Assembly: GCF_016862915.1 (NCBI RefSeq)
Contig: NZ_BONW01000044.1
Span: 62,001-126,000, forward strand
Direction of reading: 5' to 3'
Source: Plantactinospora endophytica
Lineage (GTDB): Bacteria; Actinomycetota; Actinomycetes; Mycobacteriales; Micromonosporaceae
DNA: 64,000 nt
The position numbers and the translations under genes were made by a program. The notes under the pieces are model-generated. The model made no database searches and had not been told where the DNA came from. It saw only the letters and a program-made list of their open reading frames with translations. Below are positions 17,519 through 43,926 of the stretch, piece after piece; positions within the stretch are counted from its first letter, which is position 1; each line of letters opens with the position of its first letter.

Positions 17519-18073
17519 ATGCGGATCGCGGTCTGGCGACAGCACGCCGCACTGAGGGACGGTGGGCCCATGACGCTACGGCAGGTTCGCCGACGCTGTG
17601 AGCAGCTCGCGCGCGGTATCCGGGTGCCGGACCCGTTCGATCTCGACACGTTCATCAGCGACTTCGGCACCGACCGGGGGCGTCCGGTCCACCTGATCGC
17701 GTTCGACCTGCCGCCGGGAGCACCGTGCGGGCTGTGCGTATCGACCGACGTGGCCGACTACCTGGTGGTGACCTCGGCCGCGACCGGGATGCAGCGGGTG
17801 CACATCGCCCTGCACGAGCTGGCCCACCTGCTGCTCGAACACCGACTGCACCTGATCGACGACGTACAGGGCAGCCGGCAACTGTTCCGGCACCTCGATC
17901 CGGGCGTGGTCCGCGCGATGTTCGCCCGGACCAACTACAGCAGCCAGGAGGAACAGGAGGCGGAGACGCTGGCCTCGTTGCTCGGGCAACGGGCCGGGCT
18001 GTGGCGCCCGCCGGCACCGCGTACCCCGAGCGACCCGGTGGTCGAGCGGCTCGGCCGGTCGCTGGAACACTAG
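17519..18073 (+). CDS. ImmA/IrrE-family metallopeptidase
   Basis: 184 residues with an HELAH zinc-peptidase motif at residues 99-103 followed by LLLEH, characteristic of the ImmA/IrrE (COG2856) family. Members cleave or antagonise XRE repressors (ImmA/ImmR, IrrE/DdrO). Adjacent placement immediately after an XRE gene, with no gap, suggests that the XRE protein is its target. No signal peptide is visible, so it is cytosolic. The last codons and stop fall inside a 30-bp repeat that continues downstream. Confidence 0.88.
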   Translation: MRIAVWRQHAALRDGGPMTLRQVRRRCEQLARGIRVPDPFDLDTFISDFGTDRGRPVHLIAFDLPPGAPCGLCVSTDVADYLVVTSAATGMQRVHIALHELAHLLLEHRLHLIDDVQGSRQLFRHLDPGVVRAMFARTNYSSQEEQEAETLASLLGQRAGLWRPPAPRTPSDPVVERLGRSLEH

Positions 18074-18165
18074 CGTTCACCGGAGCGGTCGCTGAAATCG
18101 TCGCCGGAACACCAGCGTTCACCGGAGCGGTCGCTGGAACACCAGCGTTCACCGGAGAGCACTAG
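18064..18165 (+). repeat. Three 30-bp repeats spanning a gene end
   Basis: Units at 18064 (containing the ImmA/IrrE gene stop codon), 18106 and 18136, with a 12-bp insertion after the first. The shared core is AGCGTTCACCGGAGCGGTCG. The gap to the next gene consists almost only of this array. Confidence 0.9.
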
Positions 18166-18176
18166 AGTGATGCCGG

Positions 18177-33373: not shown

Positions 33374-34231
33374 ATGGCTCGCCGATCTCTGCCGGTCGCG
33401 CTCACGACCGCCACCGTTGTGCTCGCCGCCCTCGTCGGCTGCGCGCCCCAGACTCAACCCACCCCCGGGCCGCCGCAGGCCACCTGCACCAAGGCCGAGT
33501 TGAAGACCCGTACGCCGGGCAAGCTGACGATCGCCACCGACGATCCCGCGTACGCGCCGTGGTTCGCCGACAACCTGCCGGCCAACGGCAAGGGCTTCGA
33601 GTCCGCCGTCGCGTACGAGGTCGCCAAGCAGCTCGGCTTCGCCCGCATCGACGTGCAGTGGGTACGGGTCAAGTTCGACACCGCGATCGCGCCGGGGCCG
33701 AAGGAGTTCGACTTCGACGTCAACCAGTTCTCGATCACCGAGGAGCGCAAGCAGGCGGTCGACTTCACCTCGCCGTACTACCTGGTCCGGCAGGCCGTGG
33801 TGGCCGGCAAGGGGTCGAAGATCACGGGTAGGTCGCAACTGGCCGACCTCCAGGGGGCCAAGCTCGGCGCCCAGGTGGGCAGCACCAGCTACCAGGCCAT
33901 CACCGACGTGATCAAGCCGACCGTCAAGCCGCAGGTCTACAACACCAACGACGACGCCAAGAAGGCCCTCCAGAACGGCCAGCTCGACGGCATCGTGGTG
34001 GACCTGCCCACCGCCTTCTACATCACCTCGGCCGAGATCAAGGACGCCACCATCGTCGGGCAGTTGCCGCAGGTCGGCCTGCCGGAGACGTTCGGCCTGC
34101 TGCTCGACAAGAACTCACCACTTACCGGCTGCGTCAGCGGTGCCGTCGACGCGCTCCGCTCCAACGGCACGCTCGGCAACCTGGAGAAGACCTGGCTCTC
34201 CGAGGTGGCCGGCGTACCCGACCTGACGTGA
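33374..34231 (+). CDS. Polar amino-acid ABC transporter, substrate-binding lipoprotein
   Basis: 285 residues. A lipoprotein signal peptide ends in LVGCAP (lipobox Cys about residue 23). The mature part is a family 3 solute-binding protein, with KLTIATDDPAYAPWFADNLP, EFDFDVNQFSITEERKQAVDFTSPYY and KLGAQVGSTSYQAI. It captures an amino acid or related polar compound and delivers it to the downstream permease. The GTGA overlap with the permease gene shows one operon. Confidence 0.92.
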   Translation: MARRSLPVALTTATVVLAALVGCAPQTQPTPGPPQATCTKAELKTRTPGKLTIATDDPAYAPWFADNLPANGKGFESAVAYEVAKQLGFARIDVQWVRVKFDTAIAPGPKEFDFDVNQFSITEERKQAVDFTSPYYLVRQAVVAGKGSKITGRSQLADLQGAKLGAQVGSTSYQAITDVIKPTVKPQVYNTNDDAKKALQNGQLDGIVVDLPTAFYITSAEIKDATIVGQLPQVGLPETFGLLLDKNSPLTGCVSGAVDALRSNGTLGNLEKTWLSEVAGVPDLT

Positions 34232-35073
34232 GCCTGCTCGACCACCACCCCTCCCCGATCGCCCGCGAGCGGGCCGCCTACCGGAAACGGCAGACGGTCC
34301 GCTCGGTGCTGGTCGCCGCCGCCTCGACCGGAATTCTCGGCACCCTGCTGGTGGTCGCGGTCACCGGGTCGCCGGGCTGGGAGCGGGTACGACAGTCGTT
34401 CCTCGACCCGCGCATCGGCCGCGAGGCGCTGCCGGAGATCCTCAGCGGACTCTGGCTCAACGTCCGGCTGCTGGTCTTCTGCGCTCTCGGCGCGCTCGCC
34501 CTCGGGCTGGTGGTGGCAGTGCTGCGTACCCTGCGCGGTCCGGTCTTCTTCCCGGTCCGGGCGCTGGCCGCCGGCTACACCTACACGTTCCGCGGCCTGC
34601 CGCTGATCATCGTGATCTACGTGCTCACCCTCGGCGTGCCGGGGCTGCGGTTGCAGGGCATGCCGCCGGTGCTGGTGCTCGGCGGGATCGCCCTGGTCCT
34701 CACCTACGGCGGCTATCTGGCCGAGGTGTTCCGGGCCGGCATCGAGTCGATCCATCCGAGCCAGCTCGCCGCCGCCCGGTCGCTGGGGCTCACCTACCGG
34801 CAGACGATGCGGCACGTGGTGCTGCCGCAGGCCGTCCGTCGGGTCGCCCCGCCACTGCTCAACGACGTGGTCGCGTTGCAGAAGGACGTCGGGCTGGTCT
34901 CGCTGGCCGGGCCGATCGACGCGGTACGCGCCGCGCAGATCGCCACCGCCGAAAGCTTCAACTACACGCCGTACATTCTCGCGGGGGTGCTGTTCGTGCT
35001 GCTCGCCGTTCCGCTGATCGCGGTCACCGACTGGGTGACACTGCGCGCCGCCCGCCGGCAGGCCGCCCGATGA
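34228..35073 (+). CDS. Polar amino-acid ABC transporter permease
   Basis: 281 residues with five or six transmembrane helices of the HisM/GlnP type and the EAA loop (AARSLGLTYRQTMRHVVLPQAV) that contacts the ATPase. A cytosolic N-terminus of 30 residues precedes the first helix. Starts at GTG overlapping the upstream stop by 4 bp, and ends in ATGA with the ATPase gene. Confidence 0.93.
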   Translation: MSLLDHHPSPIARERAAYRKRQTVRSVLVAAASTGILGTLLVVAVTGSPGWERVRQSFLDPRIGREALPEILSGLWLNVRLLVFCALGALALGLVVAVLRTLRGPVFFPVRALAAGYTYTFRGLPLIIVIYVLTLGVPGLRLQGMPPVLVLGGIALVLTYGGYLAEVFRAGIESIHPSQLAAARSLGLTYRQTMRHVVLPQAVRRVAPPLLNDVVALQKDVGLVSLAGPIDAVRAAQIATAESFNYTPYILAGVLFVLLAVPLIAVTDWVTLRAARRQAAR

Positions 35074-35828
35074 GCCCGCCCGTGTTGAGCTGTCGGGGCA
35101 TCCGGAAGGTCTTCGGCGGGCAGGTCGTACTCGACGATCTCGACCTGGACGTGGCCGAGCACGAGGTGGTGGCGCTGATCGGCGCCTCCGGCTCCGGCAA
35201 GTCCACCCTGCTGCGCTGTGCCAACCTGCTGGAGGAGATCGACGACGGCACCATCGCACTGGACGGCGAACACATCACGGACCCGCGCACCGACCCCGAC
35301 CTGGTACGCCGACGGATCGGCATCGTCTTCCAGGCGTACAACCTCTTCCCGCACCTGCGGGTGCTGGACAACATCGCCCTGGCGCCGGTCCGGGTGCACC
35401 GGCGGGACCGGGCCGAGGCCGAGGCACAGGCGCGCGAACTGCTCGCCCGGGTCGGGTTGGCGGAGAAGGCCGGGGACTATCCCGACCGGCTCTCCGGCGG
35501 CCAGCAGCAGCGGGTGGCGATCGTCCGGGCACTTGTCAACTCGCCCCGGCTGCTGCTGCTCGACGAGGTGACCTCGGCGCTCGACCCGGAACTCGTCGGC
35601 GAGGTGCTGACGATGATCCGGGACCTGAAGGCGGACGGGATGACCATGGTGCTGGCCACCCACGAGATGAGCTTCGCCCGCGAGGTCGCCGACCGGGTCT
35701 GCTTCCTGGACGGCGGACGGATCATCGAGGAGGGACCGCCGGAGCAGGTGCTCGGCGAGCCGACCCAGCCCCGTACCCGGCAGTTCCTCCGCCGGATCAT
35801 CGAGGCGGGCCGGCTCCAGGTCGGCTGA
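35070..35828 (+). CDS. Polar amino-acid ABC transporter ATPase
   Basis: 252 residues of the GlnQ/HisP type: Walker A GASGSGKST, Q-loop VFQAYNLFPHL, signature LSGGQQQRVAI, Walker B LLLLDEVTSALD and the His switch LATHEM. It powers the upstream permease. Start ATG 35070 overlaps the permease stop. Confidence 0.96.
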   Translation: MSPPVLSCRGIRKVFGGQVVLDDLDLDVAEHEVVALIGASGSGKSTLLRCANLLEEIDDGTIALDGEHITDPRTDPDLVRRRIGIVFQAYNLFPHLRVLDNIALAPVRVHRRDRAEAEAQARELLARVGLAEKAGDYPDRLSGGQQQRVAIVRALVNSPRLLLLDEVTSALDPELVGEVLTMIRDLKADGMTMVLATHEMSFAREVADRVCFLDGGRIIEEGPPEQVLGEPTQPRTRQFLRRIIEAGRLQVG

Positions 35829-35897
35829 CCGCCGATCACCGCGCGGGTTCGGCGCCCGCTTCGTGCGAGGTCGGGAAGTACCGGACCCTCACCAGCA

Positions 35898-37651
<1,754 letters not shown>

Positions 37652-37732
37652 GCCGGCCGCTCCGCTGCGCTCCGGCCCGTCATGAGACTCATCCGCACTC
37701 AACTGGCTGATTCGCTCGCCCCGCTCGCTCAT
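37652..37732 (-). repeat. Interspersed coupling repeat copy R1 (between ribE and ribBA)
   Basis: 81 bp starting at the ATG that overlaps the ribE stop and ending just before the ribBA ATG. It encodes a peptide related to those of copies R2 and R3 (ER.SQ.SA and PERSG motifs) but is one base longer, so it reads into ribBA in frame instead of ending in TGA. GGAG lies 8 nt before the ribBA ATG. Confidence 0.8.
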
Positions 37733-38358
37733 GCCACGGCCTCCAGTCCGTCGACCGGCAGGCGCCCACCGGTCGTCAGCAGTCGTTCGACGTACTTGGC
37801 GAGGACGTCAACCTCGAGGTTGACCGGCTCGCCGACACCCTTGCGGCCCAGCGTGGTGGCGGCCAGCGTGGTCGGGATCAGCCCGACCGAAAAGGTCTGC
37901 GCGGTCAGCCCGGCGACGGTCAGCGACACCCCGTCGACGGTGATCGAGCCCTTCTCCACCACGTAGCGGGCCAGTTCGGTGGGCAGGCCGAAGGTCACCG
38001 TCTCCCACTGCTCGGCCGGCTGCCGTCCGACGATCTCGGCGACCCCGTCGACGTGGCCCTGCACCAGGTGCCCGCCGAGCCGGCTGCCGAGGGTGGCGGC
38101 CCGTTCCAGGTTGACCGGGTCACCCGGCCGCAGCGCCCCCAGGGCGGTACGCCGGAACGTCTCGCCCATCACGTCGGCGGTGAACGTGTCGCCGTCGATC
38201 TCCACGACGGTCAGACAGACGCCGTTGACGGAGATCGAGTCGCCGTGCCGGGCGTCCGAGGTGACGACCGGGCCACGGATCGCGACCAGGGCCGAGTCGC
38301 CGCCCGTGTCGTCGCGTCGGACCAGTTCGCCCAGCTCTTCCACGATGCCGGTGAACAT
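37729..38358 (-). CDS. ribE: Riboflavin synthase alpha chain
   Basis: 209 residues with two lumazine-binding repeats ([13 protein letters not shown]...[13 protein letters not shown] and [15 protein letters not shown]...[11 protein letters not shown]). It dismutates two lumazines to riboflavin. ATG 38358 is 6 bp after the ribD stop. The stop overlaps the start of repeat copy R1. Confidence 0.97.
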
Positions 38359-38364
38359 CTTCAG

Positions 38365-39426
38365 TCAGCCCTCCGTCTTCCGGGGAAACGCGGTGACCCG
38401 CAGATCGGGGCCGACCGGCGTGATGTCGGTGAACTCCAGGTCGATGACCTCTGAGATGGAACGCGCGCCGGCGTCGCCCAACGCCGCCGGGCCGGCGCCG
38501 AGCAGCTTGGGCGCCAGGTAGCCGACGACCTTGTCGACCAGGCCGGCGGCGAGGAAGGCGCCGGCCAGGGTCGGACCGCCCTCCAGCAGCGCCGCCCGGA
38601 CGCCGCGCCGGTACAGCTCGGCGAGCAGCCGGGGCAGGTCGACGTGGCCGTCCGGGCCGGTGCCGACCTCCTTCGCGGTCGCCACCCAGGTGGGCGCGGC
38701 GCCGTCCCGGACCCGGGCGTCCAGCGGGGTACGCCCGTCGCTGTCCACCACCACCCGCAGCGGCTGCCGGATGGCCAGGGTGCCGTCGCGCAGATTCCGC
38801 ACGGTCAGTCTCGGGTCGTCGGCGAGCACCGTGCCGACCCCGACGACAACCGCGTCCACGGTGCCGCGCAGCGCGTGCACGTCGATCCGGGCCGCCTCGG
38901 AGGTGATCCACATGCTGGTGCCGTCGGCCGCCGCGATCCGACCGTCCAGGGTCGCCGCGTACTTCCAGATCAGGTACGGCCTCCTCCGGCGTACGGCGGT
39001 CAGCCAGGCCAGGTTGCCGGCCTCCACCTCGGCGGCGCGTACCCCGACCTCGACCTCGACCCCGGCGGCACGCAGCCGCTCGATCCCGCCCGCCGCGATC
39101 GGGTTCGGATCGGCGACGCCGACCACCACCCGGCGGACCCCGGCCGAGATCAGCGCCCCGCTGCACGGCCCGGTACGCCCGGTGTGGTCGCACGGTTCCA
39201 GGGTCACCACGGCGGTACCGCCCCGGGCCCGCTCGCCGGCCTGGGCCAGCGCGACGATCTCGGCGTGCGGCCCACCCGCGTACGCGTGGAAACCCTCGCC
39301 GACGATCTCGCCGCGCGGGTCGAGCAGGACACAGCCGACCAGGGGATTGGGGCTCGTCGTGCCCAGGCCACGGGCCGCCAGCGCGATGGCCCGGCGCATC
39401 GCCTCGTCGGCGGAGACGCCCCCCAT
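38365..39426 (-). CDS. ribD: Riboflavin biosynthesis deaminase/reductase
   Basis: 353 residues. The N-terminal cytidine-deaminase-like domain has the zinc motif GGPHAEIVAL and LEPCDHTGRTGPCSGAL. The C-terminal reductase domain has YLIWKYAATLDGRIAAADGTSMWI and ALLEGGPTLAGAFLAAGLVDK. It performs two successive steps on the GTP cyclohydrolase product. ATG 39426 follows AAGGGAA. It is the first gene after the FMN riboswitch. Confidence 0.96.
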   Translation of the reverse strand: MGGVSADEAMRRAIALAARGLGTTSPNPLVGCVLLDPRGEIVGEGFHAYAGGPHAEIVALAQAGERARGGTAVVTLEPCDHTGRTGPCSGALISAGVRRVVVGVADPNPIAAGGIERLRAAGVEVEVGVRAAEVEAGNLAWLTAVRRRRPYLIWKYAATLDGRIAAADGTSMWITSEAARIDVHALRGTVDAVVVGVGTVLADDPRLTVRNLRDGTLAIRQPLRVVVDSDGRTPLDARVRDGAAPTWVATAKEVGTGPDGHVDLPRLLAELYRRGVRAALLEGGPTLAGAFLAAGLVDKVVGYLAPKLLGAGPAALGDAGARSISEVIDLEFTDITPVGPDLRVTAFPRKTEG

Positions 39427-39535
39427 GCCGTTCCCTTCCCCTTCGCATCGCCCGTCGTCGTGACGCGCGGGCGGGTGTGGGAGGGGTGCCGGCCGGTGGC
39501 CGGACGTGCGGCGGCGGAGCATGGGAACGGCAGTC

Positions 39536-39562
39536 GCCGACCCCGAGGGAACGCGGGTCGGC
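39536..39562 (-). terminator. Hairpin downstream of the FMN aptamer
   Basis: GCCGACCC and GGGTCGGC pair perfectly around an 11-nt loop between the riboswitch and ribD. It could be part of the expression platform. There is no U-tract. Confidence 0.4.
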
Positions 39563-39594
39563 ACACACGGCCGCCCACGGACCCATCCGTCCCG

Positions 39595-39764
39595 CGCGCT
39601 GTCTCCCATCCGGACTGTCTGGGCGCGGAATGCTCCGCTCCCAACCGTCGGCCCTGGGTTCTCACCAGGTCCACCGGGCGGCCGAGGCCGACCGGGTCGC
39701 GGGCTTACCGGGCTTGCGCCCGGATCACCGCCGGTTCGGAATTACACCGAGTCCCGCCAGCGCG
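39595..39764 (-). ncRNA. FMN riboswitch (RFN element)
   Basis: On the minus strand, the conserved core segments appear in order: AACCGGCGGTGAT, GCAAGCCCG, GCCGACGGTT and ACAGTCCGGATGGGAGA, with a closing P1 helix of CGCGCT (39764-39759) and AGCGCG (39600-39595). An enlarged internal arm is GC-rich. It senses FMN and should shut off ribD-ribE-ribBA-ribH, the first start being about 170 nt downstream. Confidence 0.95.
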
Positions 39765-39846
39765 TGGTGGGTACGGATCGAGTCTTACACGGATTCGGGG
39801 CTCTCGGGTCGTCGAGGCGACCGACCTCACAACGACGTGACCGTGG

Positions 39847-40854
39847 TCACTTCGCGCCGCGCCGCCGCTCGCCCGCCTCCTCCGCCGATCCGCCCGGGGT
39901 ACGCCGCCGGTCCATCGCCACGTACGACCCGGGTTGGCTCTTGGCGACCGTCTTCATCTCGGAGGCCGCCGCGATCACTTCGAGCGGGTCGGTGAACCGT
40001 CGCTCGGGCACCGACAGCGAGACCCCGATGGAAAGGGTCACCAGGTGCGCCCGCTGGATGTTGCCGCGCCGGTCCTTCAGCTCGACATAGCCACGCTTGG
40101 CGTCCTGCGGGTCGTACAGCTCGTCGGCAGTCTTCTCGAAGTCGATCACGGCCCGTTCGGTGAGCGGCCGGACCTGCTCCGGAGCGCAGACGATCACGAA
40201 GTCGTCGCCGCCGATGTGGCCGAGGAAGGCCGGCGGCAGCCCGACCGAGACCACCGCCCGGTGCAGGCTGCGGGCCAGCGCGCTGATGAACTCGTCGCCC
40301 CGGACGAAGCCGTACCGGTCGTTGACGCTCTTGAACCGGTCGATGTCGACGTAGCCGACGGCGTAGTCGACGCCACTGCGTACCCGGTCCCCGATCTCCC
40401 GGCGGACCCGGGTGTTGCCGGGCAGCCCGGTCAGCGGGGAGACCTCGCGGAACTCCTTGTTACGACGCAGCGTGGAGCTGATCCGGGCGACGAGTTCGGC
40501 GGTGTCGAAGGGCTTGACCAGGTAGTCGTCGGCGCCGGCGGTGAGGCCGTGCACCTTGTCCACGGTCAGCCCCTTGGCGGTCAGCATGATCACCGGCAGT
40601 GCCGAGGTCATCGGGTTGGCCCGCAGTCGCCGGGTCAGCTCCAGCCCGTCGATCCGGGGCATCCGCAGGTCGACGACGGCGAGGTCGGGCCGGCGCTGCT
40701 CGATCACCTCGAGCGCCTCCTGGCCGTCCCGGGCCTGCACCACCTCGAAGCCGTGCAGCCGCAGATTGAACGAGACGAACCGGACGATGTCCTCGTCGTC
40801 GTCGACCACCAGGATCAGGTCGGGCCGCTCCTCGGCGGCGCCGTCGACGCTCAT
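39847..40854 (-). CDS. Response regulator with GGDEF-type output (PleD-like)
   Basis: 335 residues. A receiver domain (about 14-125) has the acidic VVDDDED pocket, phosphoacceptor in LAVVDLRMPRIDG, and the LVKPFD Lys. An output domain (about 140-310) follows with SPLTGLPGNTRV, YVDIDRFKSVNDRYG and HIGGDDF in place of GGDEF. No RxxD inhibitory site precedes it. GGDDF can be active or not, so the enzyme state is uncertain. ATG 40854 overlaps the stop of mini-ORF R2. No histidine kinase is adjacent. Confidence 0.9.
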   Translation of the reverse strand: MSVDGAAEERPDLILVVDDDEDIVRFVSFNLRLHGFEVVQARDGQEALEVIEQRRPDLAVVDLRMPRIDGLELTRRLRANPMTSALPVIMLTAKGLTVDKVHGLTAGADDYLVKPFDTAELVARISSTLRRNKEFREVSPLTGLPGNTRVRREIGDRVRSGVDYAVGYVDIDRFKSVNDRYGFVRGDEFISALARSLHRAVVSVGLPPAFLGHIGGDDFVIVCAPEQVRPLTERAVIDFEKTADELYDPQDAKRGYVELKDRRGNIQRAHLVTLSIGVSLSVPERRFTDPLEVIAAASEMKTVAKSQPGSYVAMDRRRTPGGSAEEAGERRRGAK

Positions 40855-40934
40855 GCCCGCCCTCCGCTCCGCTCCGTGCGGGCACGAGGCTCTCCCGCAC
40901 TGCGCTGACTGGTTCGCTCGCTGCGCCCGCTCAT
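40851..40934 (-). CDS. 27-residue mini-ORF, coupling repeat copy R2
   Basis: Starts at an ATG overlapping the stop of mini-ORF R3 and ends in a TGA overlapping the ATG of the response regulator. GGAGG sits 6 nt before that next ATG, inside the repeat. The peptide is Arg/Ser/Gly-rich ([14 protein letters not shown], then RTERSGGRA). It is more likely a coupling device than a functional peptide. Confidence 0.5.
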   Translation of the reverse strand: MSGRSERTSQRSAGEPRARTERSGGRA

Positions 40935-41014
40935 GCCCGCCCCCCGCTCCGCTCCGGGCGACCATGAGGCACCCCTGCACTGAGCTGACTGGTTCGCTCG
41001 CCGCGCCCGCTCAC
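40855..41014 (-). repeat. Interspersed coupling repeat copies R2 and R3, 80-bp tandem
   Basis: Two head-to-tail 80-bp copies related to R1 at 37652. Each begins at a gene stop codon and ends one base before the next ATG. Confidence 0.85.
40931..41014 (-). CDS. 27-residue mini-ORF, coupling repeat copy R3
   Basis: GTG start overlapping the rpe stop (GTGA), 27 codons, and a TGA overlapping the ATG of mini-ORF R2. The peptide is nearly the same as R2 ([14 protein letters not shown], then RPERSGGRA). Head-to-tail with R2 at an 80-bp period. Confidence 0.5.
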
Positions 41015-41691
41015 GGCTGTGGCGCGGCGCGCTCGGCGAGCCGCCGGAGCTGGGTCACCGCCGCGGCCGGGTCCGCCGCGCCGTAGACGGCGGTGCCGGC
41101 GACGAACGCGTCCGCACCGGCCGCCGCCGCCTGCTCGATGGTGTCGGCCGCGATGCCGCCGTCGACCTCGATCCGGAGTTCGAGGTGACCGGCGGCGGCG
41201 TGCCGGCGGGCGGTCCGGACCTTGTCGAGCAGTTCGGGGATGAACCGCTGCCCCCCGAAGCCCGCCTTGATAGTCATGATCAGCAATGTATCGAAGCTGG
41301 GCAAGAGGTCAAGGTACGGTTCGATCGGAGTGTCCCGGTCGATCGCCAGCCCCGCCTTCGCCCCGGCCGACCGAAGGTCCTTGGCCAGCGAGACCGGGTT
41401 GTCGCACGCCTCGGCGTGGAACGTCACGTTGTACGCACCGGCGTCCGCGTAACTCGGCGCCCACCGGCGCGGATCGTCGATCATCAGGTGTACGTCGAAC
41501 GGCAGCGCGGTCGCGGCCAACAGGCTCTGCACCACCGGCAGCCCGATGGTCAGGTTGGGCACGAAGTGGTTGTCCATCACATCGACGTGCAGCCAGTCCG
41601 CCGTGGCCTCCACCGCCTGCACCTCGTCGGCGAGCCGGGCGAAGTCTGCGGCGAGGATGCTGGGCGCGACGATCGGCGCTGGTACGGTCAC
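41011..41691 (-). CDS. rpe: Ribulose-phosphate 3-epimerase
   Basis: 226-residue TIM barrel linking ribulose-5-P and xylulose-5-P in the pentose phosphate pathway; ribulose-5-P is also the DHBP synthase substrate, which fits its place before the riboflavin genes. Motifs: [48 protein letters not shown] and IEVDGGI. GTG 41691 is 6 nt after TACACT, suggesting a leaderless mRNA. The stop overlaps mini-ORF R3. Confidence 0.95.
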
Positions 41692-41697
41692 CGCGCC

Positions 41698-41703
41698 AGT
41701 GTA
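41698..41703 (-). promoter_or_regulatory. Possible -10 box for leaderless rpe mRNA
   Basis: TACACT (minus) ends 6 nt before GTG 41691. No clear -35. Confidence 0.35.
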
Positions 41704-41799
41704 CGAATGCCGGCCACCCCGCCCGCCCGTCACCCTCCGATCGCGCTCGCCCCTGCTCGGCGACGCGCTCGCCGTGCGCGACGACAGCCGGGTCGGTCG

Positions 41800-43926
41800 T
41801 CAGCGGACCACTGACGCCCCGTCGGCGAAGAACCGGTCCGGGGTGATCGGCAGGTCGCGGACGCGTACCCCGGTGGCGTGCTGCACGGCGTTGGCGATCG
41901 CCGCGGCGGTGCCGACGATGCCCAGCTCACCGATGCCCTTCGACCCCATCGGGTTGACGTACGGGTCGTCCTCGGCGAGCAGGTGCACCTCGACCGTACC
42001 GACGTCTGCGTTGGTCGCGATGTGGTAGTTGGCCAGGTCGTGGTTGACCACGTGCCCGAACCGGGGATCGAGTACGCACTGCTCGTGCAACGCCATCGAC
42101 AGCCCCATGGTCATTCCGCCGAGCAGTTGGGACCGGCCGGTCTTCGGGTTGATGATCCGGCCGGCGGCGAAGACGCCGAGCAGCCGGGGCACCCGTACCT
42201 CGCCGGTCGCCTCGTGCACCCGGACCTCGGCGAACTGGGCGCCGAAGGCGTACATCGAGAAGCGCTCCCGGTCGGGGTTCTCCGGCATGTCGGCGGCGGC
42301 CTCGATCCCGGACGCCGGTATCCCGTCGACGTGCTCGGCGGCCTCCCGGGCGCGGAGCCGACGGGCGGCCTCGACCACCGCGCTGCCCCACGAGGTCATC
42401 CCGGACGAGCCGCCCGCCGCCATCGCCGGCGGCAGTGCCGTGTCACCGATCCGCAGGTCGATCCGTTCGACCGGTACGGCCAGCGCGTCGGCGGCGATCT
42501 GGGCCAGCGTGGTCCAGGTGCCGGTACCGAGGTCGGCGGCGCCGATCGACACCACGTACCGGCCGTCGGGCTCCAGTCGGATCGTCGCCGACGAACCGGG
42601 AAGCTGGTAGACCGGGTACACCGAGGACGCCACCCCGGTGCCGACCAGCCAACCGCCGGCCGCCCGACGTACCCCCGGAGTCGGGTCCCGGCCGGCCCAG
42701 CCGAACCGGCGGGCGCCGTCGCGCAGGCAGGCGACCAGGTTACGGGTGGAGAACGGCAGGTCCAGTTCGGGATCGACCGGCGGCTCGTTGGCGATCCGGA
42801 ACTCGACCGGGTCCTGCCCGCAGGCGATCGCCATCTCGTCCATCGCCGACTCCAGCGCGTACATCCCCGGGGTCTTCCCCGGGGCGCGCATGATCGTCGG
42901 CACCGGCACGTCGAGCCGGACCATCCGGTGCGTGGTACTGCGGTGCGGCGCCGCGTACATCACCCGGGTCGGCGTGACGGTCTGCTCGGCGAACTCCTTG
43001 TGCCGGGCCGTCTGCTGCACCGCCTCGTGGCTGACCGCGACCAGCTTCCCGTCCCGTCCGGCGCCGAGCCGGATCCGCTGGAACGACGGCGTGCGGTAGC
43101 CGACCTGGGAGAACATCTGCTGCCGGGTGAGCGCGAGCTTCACCGGCCGGCCGGGCACGGCGAACGCGCACAGCACCGCGAGTACGACGTCCGGATGGGC
43201 GTGCAGCTTGCCGCCGAACGCGCCGCCGACGTACGGCGAGATGATCCGGATCCGCTCCGGTTCGAGCCCGAAGAGGGTGGCCAGCGAGTCCCGCAACCGG
43301 TGCACGCCCTGACTGCCGACGTAGAGGGTGAGCCGGTCGCCGGCCCAGGTGGCGATCGTGGCGTGCGGCTCGATCTGCGCGTGCTGGTACCAGGCGGTGG
43401 TGTAGGTGGCGTCCAGGCGTACCGCCGCCTCGGCCAACGCCGCCTCCGGATCGCCGTGCACGCTGTCGGTGGCGAACCCGCCGTTCACGACCGCCGGGGC
43501 GTACCGGTCCGGGTGGTCGGGCCGCAGCTCGACGTCGTGCGGGCCGGTCCGGTAGTCCACTCCGACCAGGTCGGCGGCCCGGCGGGCGGCCTCCGAGGTC
43601 TCCGCCACGACGGCGGCGACGAACTGCCCCCGGTACGCCACCTCGGGCGTCTGCAGGATCGTCATCTCCGCGTCGTCGGTGGAGGCGACCCGGGGCGCGT
43701 TCTCGTGGGTCAGCACGGCCAGCACTCCCGGCTCGGCCAGCGCGGCCTCGGTGTGCACCGCGACGATCCGCCCGACGGCGACGGTGGCCTGCACCGGGAA
43801 CAGGTAGGCCGGCCGGTCGACGGGGTGCTCGAAGGCGTACCGGGCGGTGCCGGTGACCTTCGCCGGCCCGTCGAACCGGTCCAGCGGCCTGCCGATGGCC
43901 CGGACCGCCAGCGTCTTCCCGTCCAC
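41800..43926 (-). CDS. Molybdopterin-binding subunit of a xanthine-dehydrogenase-type enzyme, orphan
   Basis: 708 residues of the large, molybdenum-cofactor subunit family (PaoC/YagR, CoxL-like). The N-terminal hammerhead domain (DRFDGPAKVTGTARYAFE) is followed by the cofactor domain with GGAFGGK, IMRAPGKTPGMYALESAMDEMA, AADLGTGTWTTLAQIAADAL and GSKGIGELGIVG (catalytic Glu). Usually three subunits are encoded together; no FAD or [2Fe-2S] subunit is found here. GTG 43926 is 7 nt after TAGATT, consistent with its own leaderless promoter. The substrate is unknown. The partner subunits may be elsewhere. Confidence 0.9.
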   Translation of the reverse strand: MDGKTLAVRAIGRPLDRFDGPAKVTGTARYAFEHPVDRPAYLFPVQATVAVGRIVAVHTEAALAEPGVLAVLTHENAPRVASTDDAEMTILQTPEVAYRGQFVAAVVAETSEAARRAADLVGVDYRTGPHDVELRPDHPDRYAPAVVNGGFATDSVHGDPEAALAEAAVRLDATYTTAWYQHAQIEPHATIATWAGDRLTLYVGSQGVHRLRDSLATLFGLEPERIRIISPYVGGAFGGKLHAHPDVVLAVLCAFAVPGRPVKLALTRQQMFSQVGYRTPSFQRIRLGAGRDGKLVAVSHEAVQQTARHKEFAEQTVTPTRVMYAAPHRSTTHRMVRLDVPVPTIMRAPGKTPGMYALESAMDEMAIACGQDPVEFRIANEPPVDPELDLPFSTRNLVACLRDGARRFGWAGRDPTPGVRRAAGGWLVGTGVASSVYPVYQLPGSSATIRLEPDGRYVVSIGAADLGTGTWTTLAQIAADALAVPVERIDLRIGDTALPPAMAAGGSSGMTSWGSAVVEAARRLRAREAAEHVDGIPASGIEAAADMPENPDRERFSMYAFGAQFAEVRVHEATGEVRVPRLLGVFAAGRIINPKTGRSQLLGGMTMGLSMALHEQCVLDPRFGHVVNHDLANYHIATNADVGTVEVHLLAEDDPYVNPMGSKGIGELGIVGTAAAIANAVQHATGVRVRDLPITPDRFFADGASVVR

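Follow-up and report, generated by a model that had tools for sequence, protein, structure and literature searches.

Based on the evidence assembled here, three related units of ~80 bp on the minus strand of a 64,000-nucleotide stretch of Plantactinospora endophytica DNA (contig NZ_BONW01000044.1, positions 62,001 to 126,000; hereafter the window), labelled R1, R2 and R3, are understood as copies of a non-autonomous interspersed element that inserts at gene starts and carries a small internal open reading frame (mini-ORF) which would relay ribosomes to the gene behind it. We give this reading a probability of about 0.83. Insertion, orientation, the open frame, a Shine-Dalgarno (SD)-like motif, a covarying hairpin and a fused gene frame are read from sequence, and we infer that the mini-ORF would be translated and coupled to its gene and that an enzyme would mobilise the unit. 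Direct reading confirms the original prediction, made from the window alone, that the three units are related, lie on this strand and are bounded by NTGA stop/start overlaps, and that R2 and R3 form 27-codon mini-ORFs chained between rpe and the gene of a response regulator (RR); all three junctions of the chain rpe-R3-R2-RR are 4-nt NTGA overlaps. It bears out equally that R1, one base longer, runs in frame into ribBA, a single 450-codon ORF extending from the ribE stop. The gapped identity of R2 and R3 is 87% (73/84), that of R1 is 76% (65/85) with R2 and 75% (64/85) with R3, and the repeat listing groups all three as one family.

The repeat is dispersed, and its copies face genes. Seven genomes of the genus were compared (G000, the source genome of the window, to G006) with a typed 84-nt consensus as query (E ≤ 1e-3), and all seven gave matches: 22 in G000 (best 1.9e-29), so that the genome-wide search proposed in the original prediction returned more than chance, and 13, 35, 38, 13, 2 and 7 in G001 to G006. 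A search by nhmmer with the first alignment collected 227 distinct units from the loci gathered, of which 183 of full length were kept and 44 partial ones dropped; the full units make up 145 distinct arrays flanked by 200 nt or more. When the flanks were scored by codon usage over 180 nt in six frames, after training on 351 ORFs, the ATG at the 3' end opened the best coding frame in 137/145 arrays, compared with 34% of 3605 ATGA sites and 37.6% of 370 ATGAGC sites outside units. Copies lying mostly off junctions or oriented at random, the outcome named beforehand as contrary to the idea, are thus not what is seen. In the other eight arrays the ATG opens a further short ORF of 6-33 codons with NTGA at its end in seven cases, and a frame of 396 codons in one. 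At the ends, the first base is A in 168, G in 13 and T in 2 of the 183 units at the 5' end and A in 180 and G in 3 at the 3' end, and the 3' junction reads ATGAGC or ATGAGT in 165/183. By eye the 5' ends are near-uniform (NTGAGCGA) and the 3' flanks follow the gene; no target-site duplication longer than NTGA is claimed.

That the repeat was inserted, as well as dispersed, is seen from empty sites in related genomes. At rpe-RR the bare junction GTGAGCGTCGAC is present in G004 and G005, while one unit stands there in G001 and G002, two in G000, one together with a shortened in-frame one in G003, and a 26-bp remnant in G006; the copy number among congeners is accordingly 0, 1 or 2, a comparison between species only. 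The ribE-ribBA junction is empty in G003, G005 and G006 and filled in G000 and G004, and units occur at it also in G027 and G011, which belong to other genera. Orthologous junctions were retrieved with an 18-gene probe and 60 upstream regions were read; the gene names ilvN, argG, argJ, nuoG, nuoC, nuoI, nuoN, trpB, dop, gpsA, fabG-like and luxR-type are presumed from our own reading of the first residues. In 20 alignments of filled with empty sites, seven (at four junctions: argG twice, ilvN twice, nuoC once and one unnamed gene twice) have a single clean 80-bp gap and no other indel, and six have a gap that is split but needs no compensating indels (80, 160, 80, 81, 81, 80). Where relatives use a native GTG (rpe-RR, nuoG and the fabG-like gene), G000 has kept the G at the 5' end of the unit and the gene now starts with ATG. 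Because the native first base stays at the 5' side and the 3' junction has the regularity given above, insertion is placed, as the sequences suggest, at N^TGAGC.

What is kept within the unit is an open frame. Frame 1 is free of internal stops in 182/183 units; stops close frame 2 in 180 of them and frame 3 in 114. None of 118 units of 84 nt has a stop, compared with 21% under random substitution at the observed divergence (a neutral simulation that assumes a star phylogeny, hence a guide and not an exact test) and 5% by column resampling. The unit length is a multiple of 3 in 174/183; of the nine remaining units, six continue in frame into whatever follows (another unit, a mini-ORF or the gene), two reach a stop 5 nt beyond the 3' ATG, and the last is broken. 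The same constraint is visible in a set of 20 derivatives, selected by eye, that are shortened or decayed or belong to a foreign family: the spacing is 2 mod 3 in 17 of them, the stop falls right at the overlap in 16, and the three with other spacing comprise one in-frame fusion and two tandem arrays of a second repeat family described below. Seven of the 20 are 26-bp forms (at nuoG, nuoI, trpB, rpe-RR, and dop in three genomes), which would fit a deletion between the unit's two GAGCGnAGCG copies. An SD-like GGAG, GAGG or AGGA lies 4-10 nt before the 3' ATG in 173/179 unique units, compared with 23% in shuffles. Of the earlier suggestion that the repeat keeps translation going, the open frame from NTGA to NTGA holds, and ribosome occupancy and coupling are its probable, sequence-derived counterpart.

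The 3' end of the unit also appears to be structured. In a covariation test on 26 diverged units with two hairpins that we specified, the hairpins pair in 91.7% of cells. Changes on both sides of a pair occur in 28 cells, compared with 6.2 in shuffles (none of 500 reaches 28), a control that is inflated by related sequences, and with 6-9 when partners are slid, a control that keeps the relatedness. The 3' helix, in which UCAUG pairs with the final CAUGA, holds six of the nine pairs with both-side changes. With its start codon held in a stem, the gene would be expressed only if the mini-ORF is translated; the stem could equally be a mobilisation signal.

The mechanism proposed from these features is as follows. 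The element would insert at N^TGAGC or a close match within a gene's start codon, leaving the native first base at its 5' end (NTGA) and supplying a new ATG, whereby some native GTG starts would become ATG. The mini-ORF, of ~25-27 codons, would be driven by the native ribosome-binding site or by the preceding gene via the stop/start overlap. As its stop overlaps the gene's ATG, with the SD-like GGAG just upstream, terminating ribosomes may restart on the gene. Selection at the level of the host would keep this relay open and leave the peptide free. The 3' hairpin might mask the start of the gene until ribosomes translate the mini-ORF, or serve as a recognition structure for mobilisation, or both. 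Units would give rise to tandem copies, lose length through deletions that preserve the frame, or become joined to the gene, as in ribBA.

Several observations weigh against this account. The 5' TGA lies in the best upstream coding frame in only 80/145 arrays; in the other 65 another frame scores best, as would be the case if a spacer, a promoter or an older remnant preceded the unit. These 65 arrays, and ilvN, where ~10 nt separate the upstream stop from the native start, also redefine the target of the repeat as the gene start codon and not only the operon overlap, so that the predicted spread between operon genes stands as regards insertion and fails as regards a specific operon target. GGCATGAGC sites outside called units already score 59.5% of 42 in the frame test; some of them are possibly remnants. 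Seven of the 20 empty/filled alignments need compensating indels and are not length-exact, and in all of them the aligned windows differ by ~80 or 160 nt by design, for which reason only the absence of compensating indels was counted. The empty ribBA starts read ATGAC rather than ATGAGC, and because of this a close match to the target seems, on the sequences compared, to be enough. One unit, L102, is broken by a stop. Eight single units are not clearly better folded than shuffles (z -1.08 to 1.95), and single-unit fold energy was dropped as evidence for structure. No covariance-model match was obtained, under strict filters, in 18/44 genera of the family. A mobilising enzyme was not found; the search for Y1_Tnp (PF01797) was negative in 6/7 genus genomes.

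Three other explanations were weighed against the same data. The units might be conserved small-protein genes, that is, a functional family of 25-27-residue peptides copied beside many genes, as the open frame in 182/183 units, with starts and stops in place, would suggest. The entropy by codon position is flat, however (0.66, 0.72, 0.72), and compensated frameshifts allow one DNA to be read as MSERSER.., MSERQRAN.. or MSELASES.. (142, 22 and 15 units; 4 other). Given this flat entropy and the three alternative readings of related DNA, the peptide is neither conserved nor the object of selection; moreover, the 9-codon remnants retain the overlap and little of the peptide. A small-protein gene family was rejected on these grounds and is considered very unlikely. 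Decay in place of duplicated gene starts, as old vertical relics without mobility, could account for the degenerate copies at the gpsA and LuxR-type regulator junctions. It is hard to reconcile with one sequence at unrelated gene starts for which congeners have intact native starts, or with a ribE-ribBA junction that is filled in G000/G004, G027 and G011 but empty in three congeners, and we lend it hardly any credence.

REP/BIME elements pair with RAYT transposases, and like them the present repeat is dispersed, short, palindromic and non-autonomous. The covarying 3' palindrome and the dispersed copies, single and tandem, would therefore also suit a REP/BIME-like DNA element that is moved by a Y1 (RAYT/IS200) transposase and has its ORF as a by-product. 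Yet PF01797 was found in only one of the seven genus genomes, and in none of G000, G002 and G003, the richest in copies; Y1/RAYT mobilisation was rejected for this absence. The start-codon target, the fixed orientation and the conserved open frame differ from REP/BIME, and the target, the orientation and the keeping of the frame in shortened copies are left unexplained by a by-product. We regard this explanation as improbable; an enzyme other than Y1 is possible and would fit the ribosome-relaying element as well. The sole Y1 transposase match among the seven genomes is L354 (G001:C166:3904-4137).

In G000 both starts of ribBA, the 5' ATG of the repeat and the native ATG, are possible. G004 has the same R1 form, and because its native ribBA ATG is ACG and the unit's 5' ATG is the only in-frame ATG/GTG/TTG seen before the conserved domain, the RibBA of G004 likely does carry a 27-residue N-terminal leader derived from the repeat. 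The leader differs at several residues between G000 and G004, and gives no sign of a function of its own.

Beyond the genus, a 19-base pattern run over a named genome collection gave 97 stretches; among the matches listed (80 of 97), 74 carry titles that we take to be Micromonosporaceae (Micromonospora, Verrucosispora, Plantactinospora, Actinoplanes, Virgisporangium, Catenuloplanes, Phytohabitans, Asanoa and others), and 6 are other or undetermined. A covariance model built from the 26 units, used with the strict filters noted above in family and order searches, matched 38/61 family genomes in 26/44 genera and, in the order, 35/200 genomes, of which 12 belong to four other families. Loci from 8 of those 12 other-family genomes preserve the layout, with NTGA at both ends in 27/30 and an open frame to the terminal TGA in 28/30. 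Carriage by plasmids or phages was discarded as an explanation, the 84-nt consensus being without match (blastn, E ≤ 1e-3) in 72,556 plasmid and 50,697 phage records.

Related arrangements were encountered alongside. A second repeat family (NTGAGCGCGAGGA..CGCAGTCGCGA..) likewise reads open from NTGA to NTGA and occupies gene starts of this kind, at L217 (ribE-ribBA of G021), L295 (trpB of G003) and L297 (trpB of G001), with tandem spacing of 80 bp (three copies) and 62 bp (two copies). Upstream of dop (a name given by eye), all seven genus genomes have a 9-codon remnant-like leader (MGxRSEAxx; loci L008, L057, L073, L041 and L298-L300), which closes with ATGA, either at the gene itself or at a full unit. 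A TAGGCT-/TACGCT-like box lies shortly before the leader's ATG in six of the seven, with TACCCT in G005; this might reflect a leaderless transcript.

Coordinates of the units and neighbouring genes are collected below. The original call of a response regulator gene stands and is refined by a GGDEF domain. An FMN riboswitch (RF00050, 71.5 bits) lies at 39594-39765 (-), ahead of ribD; the rib genes that follow, ribE and ribBA being separated by R1, may form one operon under its control. It was the sole Rfam match at gathering scores in 34000-43000, the region searched, where no RNA family matched the repeat. Elsewhere in the window, 18058-18169 holds three copies of a 40-nt direct repeat (GTCGCTGGAACACnAGCGTTCACCGG..), by eye unrelated to R1-R3.

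Features around the three repeat units; positions are those of the window, and units include the NTGA shared at both ends.
Feature	Position	Strand	Basis and remarks
rpe (ribulose-phosphate 3-epimerase)	41011-41733	-	PF00834, Ribul_P_3_epim; TGA overlaps R3 GTG as GTGA
R3, repeat unit and 27-codon mini-ORF, GTGA to ATGA	40931-41014	-	direct reading, repeat listing
R2, repeat unit and 27-codon mini-ORF, ATGA to ATGA	40851-40934	-	direct reading, repeat listing
3' hairpin of R2, ATGA overlap within stem	40851-40887	-	fold of R2; covariation over 26 units
RR, receiver and GGDEF, start supplied by R2	39847-40854	-	PF00072, PF00990
ribD	38365-39426	-	PF01872 (RibD), PF00383; start codon chosen by us
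ribE	37729-38358	-	PF00677 (Lum_binding); TGA overlaps R1 ATG as ATGA
R1, 85-nt repeat unit, one extra base, no stop before native ribBA start	37648-37732	-	
ribBA with repeat-derived N-terminal leader, 450 codons	36380-37732	-	PF00926 (DHBP_synthase), PF00925 (GTP_cyclohydro2); native ATG at 37651

There exist clear analogies to the mycobacterial interspersed repetitive unit (MIRU), reportedly described by Supply et al. in 1997. MIRUs are a main typing marker of mycobacteria, and their target is DTGA, for which the literature searched gave no confirmation. A 2025 review describes them as apparently mobile, located at start codons and endowed with an internal ORF that overlaps the gene start by 4 nt, a ribosome relay being the likely way in which the host gene is spared (PMC12548453). 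The idea behind the original prediction is thus not new, MIRUs being described in such terms in that review. Two further papers give MIRUs as repeats ~40-100 bp long that occur at many scattered places (PMC2734929), and a 77-nt class I MIRU as the 5' untranslated region of parA in M. bovis, the gene being leaderless in M. marinum (PMC4128351). The present repeat resembles MIRUs in being short (~80 bp), located at start codons, gene-facing, arranged in tandem arrays and present in 2 to 38 matches per genus genome, with an ORF from NTGA to NTGA as a likeness of layout only. It differs in its 80-bp unit, as against a 51-53-bp spacing in MIRU-motif arrays, and in sequence: by eye the two share only the NTGA ends, a GAGCGAAGCG stretch and the SD-like end. 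A typed MIRU motif, with up to 2 mismatches allowed, was found in 15/298 order genomes, all of genus g47 and none in family f1, with tandem spacing of 51-53 bp; the reversed control had 0 matches among the matches listed. NTGA follows within a few bases of the motif in 14 of 20 printed loci, judged by eye. The covariance model of the present repeat had no match in g47 under strict filters, in a search that apparently covered ten of the 15 motif-bearing genomes. As far as layout can tell, the repeat appears to work like a MIRU; common descent is not claimed, no sequence homology having been detected. Rickettsia palindromic elements offer another likeness, in that a repeat is translated in frame, as R1 in ribBA; those elements lie inside genes, whereas here the units as a rule form an ORF of their own in front of the gene and fusion is exceptional.

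The kind of element is therefore already known in mycobacteria. New are a separate and widespread sequence family with empty sites, the conservation of a frame without its peptide, a covarying hairpin at the start codon and an apparent gene fusion in RibBA. Among the papers listed in the literature searched, with most subscription journals outside it, no report was found of such an element beyond mycobacteria or in Micromonosporaceae. A wider view, which we offer tentatively and with more doubt than conviction, is that the order could hold a class of start-codon-specific mobile elements (this family, the CGCAGTCGCGA family and MIRUs), in which ribosome delivery would be the sole selected product. 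They might be moved in trans by a putative recombinase recognising the covarying hairpin together with a TGAGC core, and would repeatedly rewrite gene starts (GTG to ATG) and add N-terminal leaders as in RibBA. Finding the same logic in a separate family across Micromonosporaceae makes the relay hypothesis testable in harmless soil actinomycetes. Annotators are also warned that repeats may be the origin of many gene starts and of many short N-terminal extensions in these genomes.

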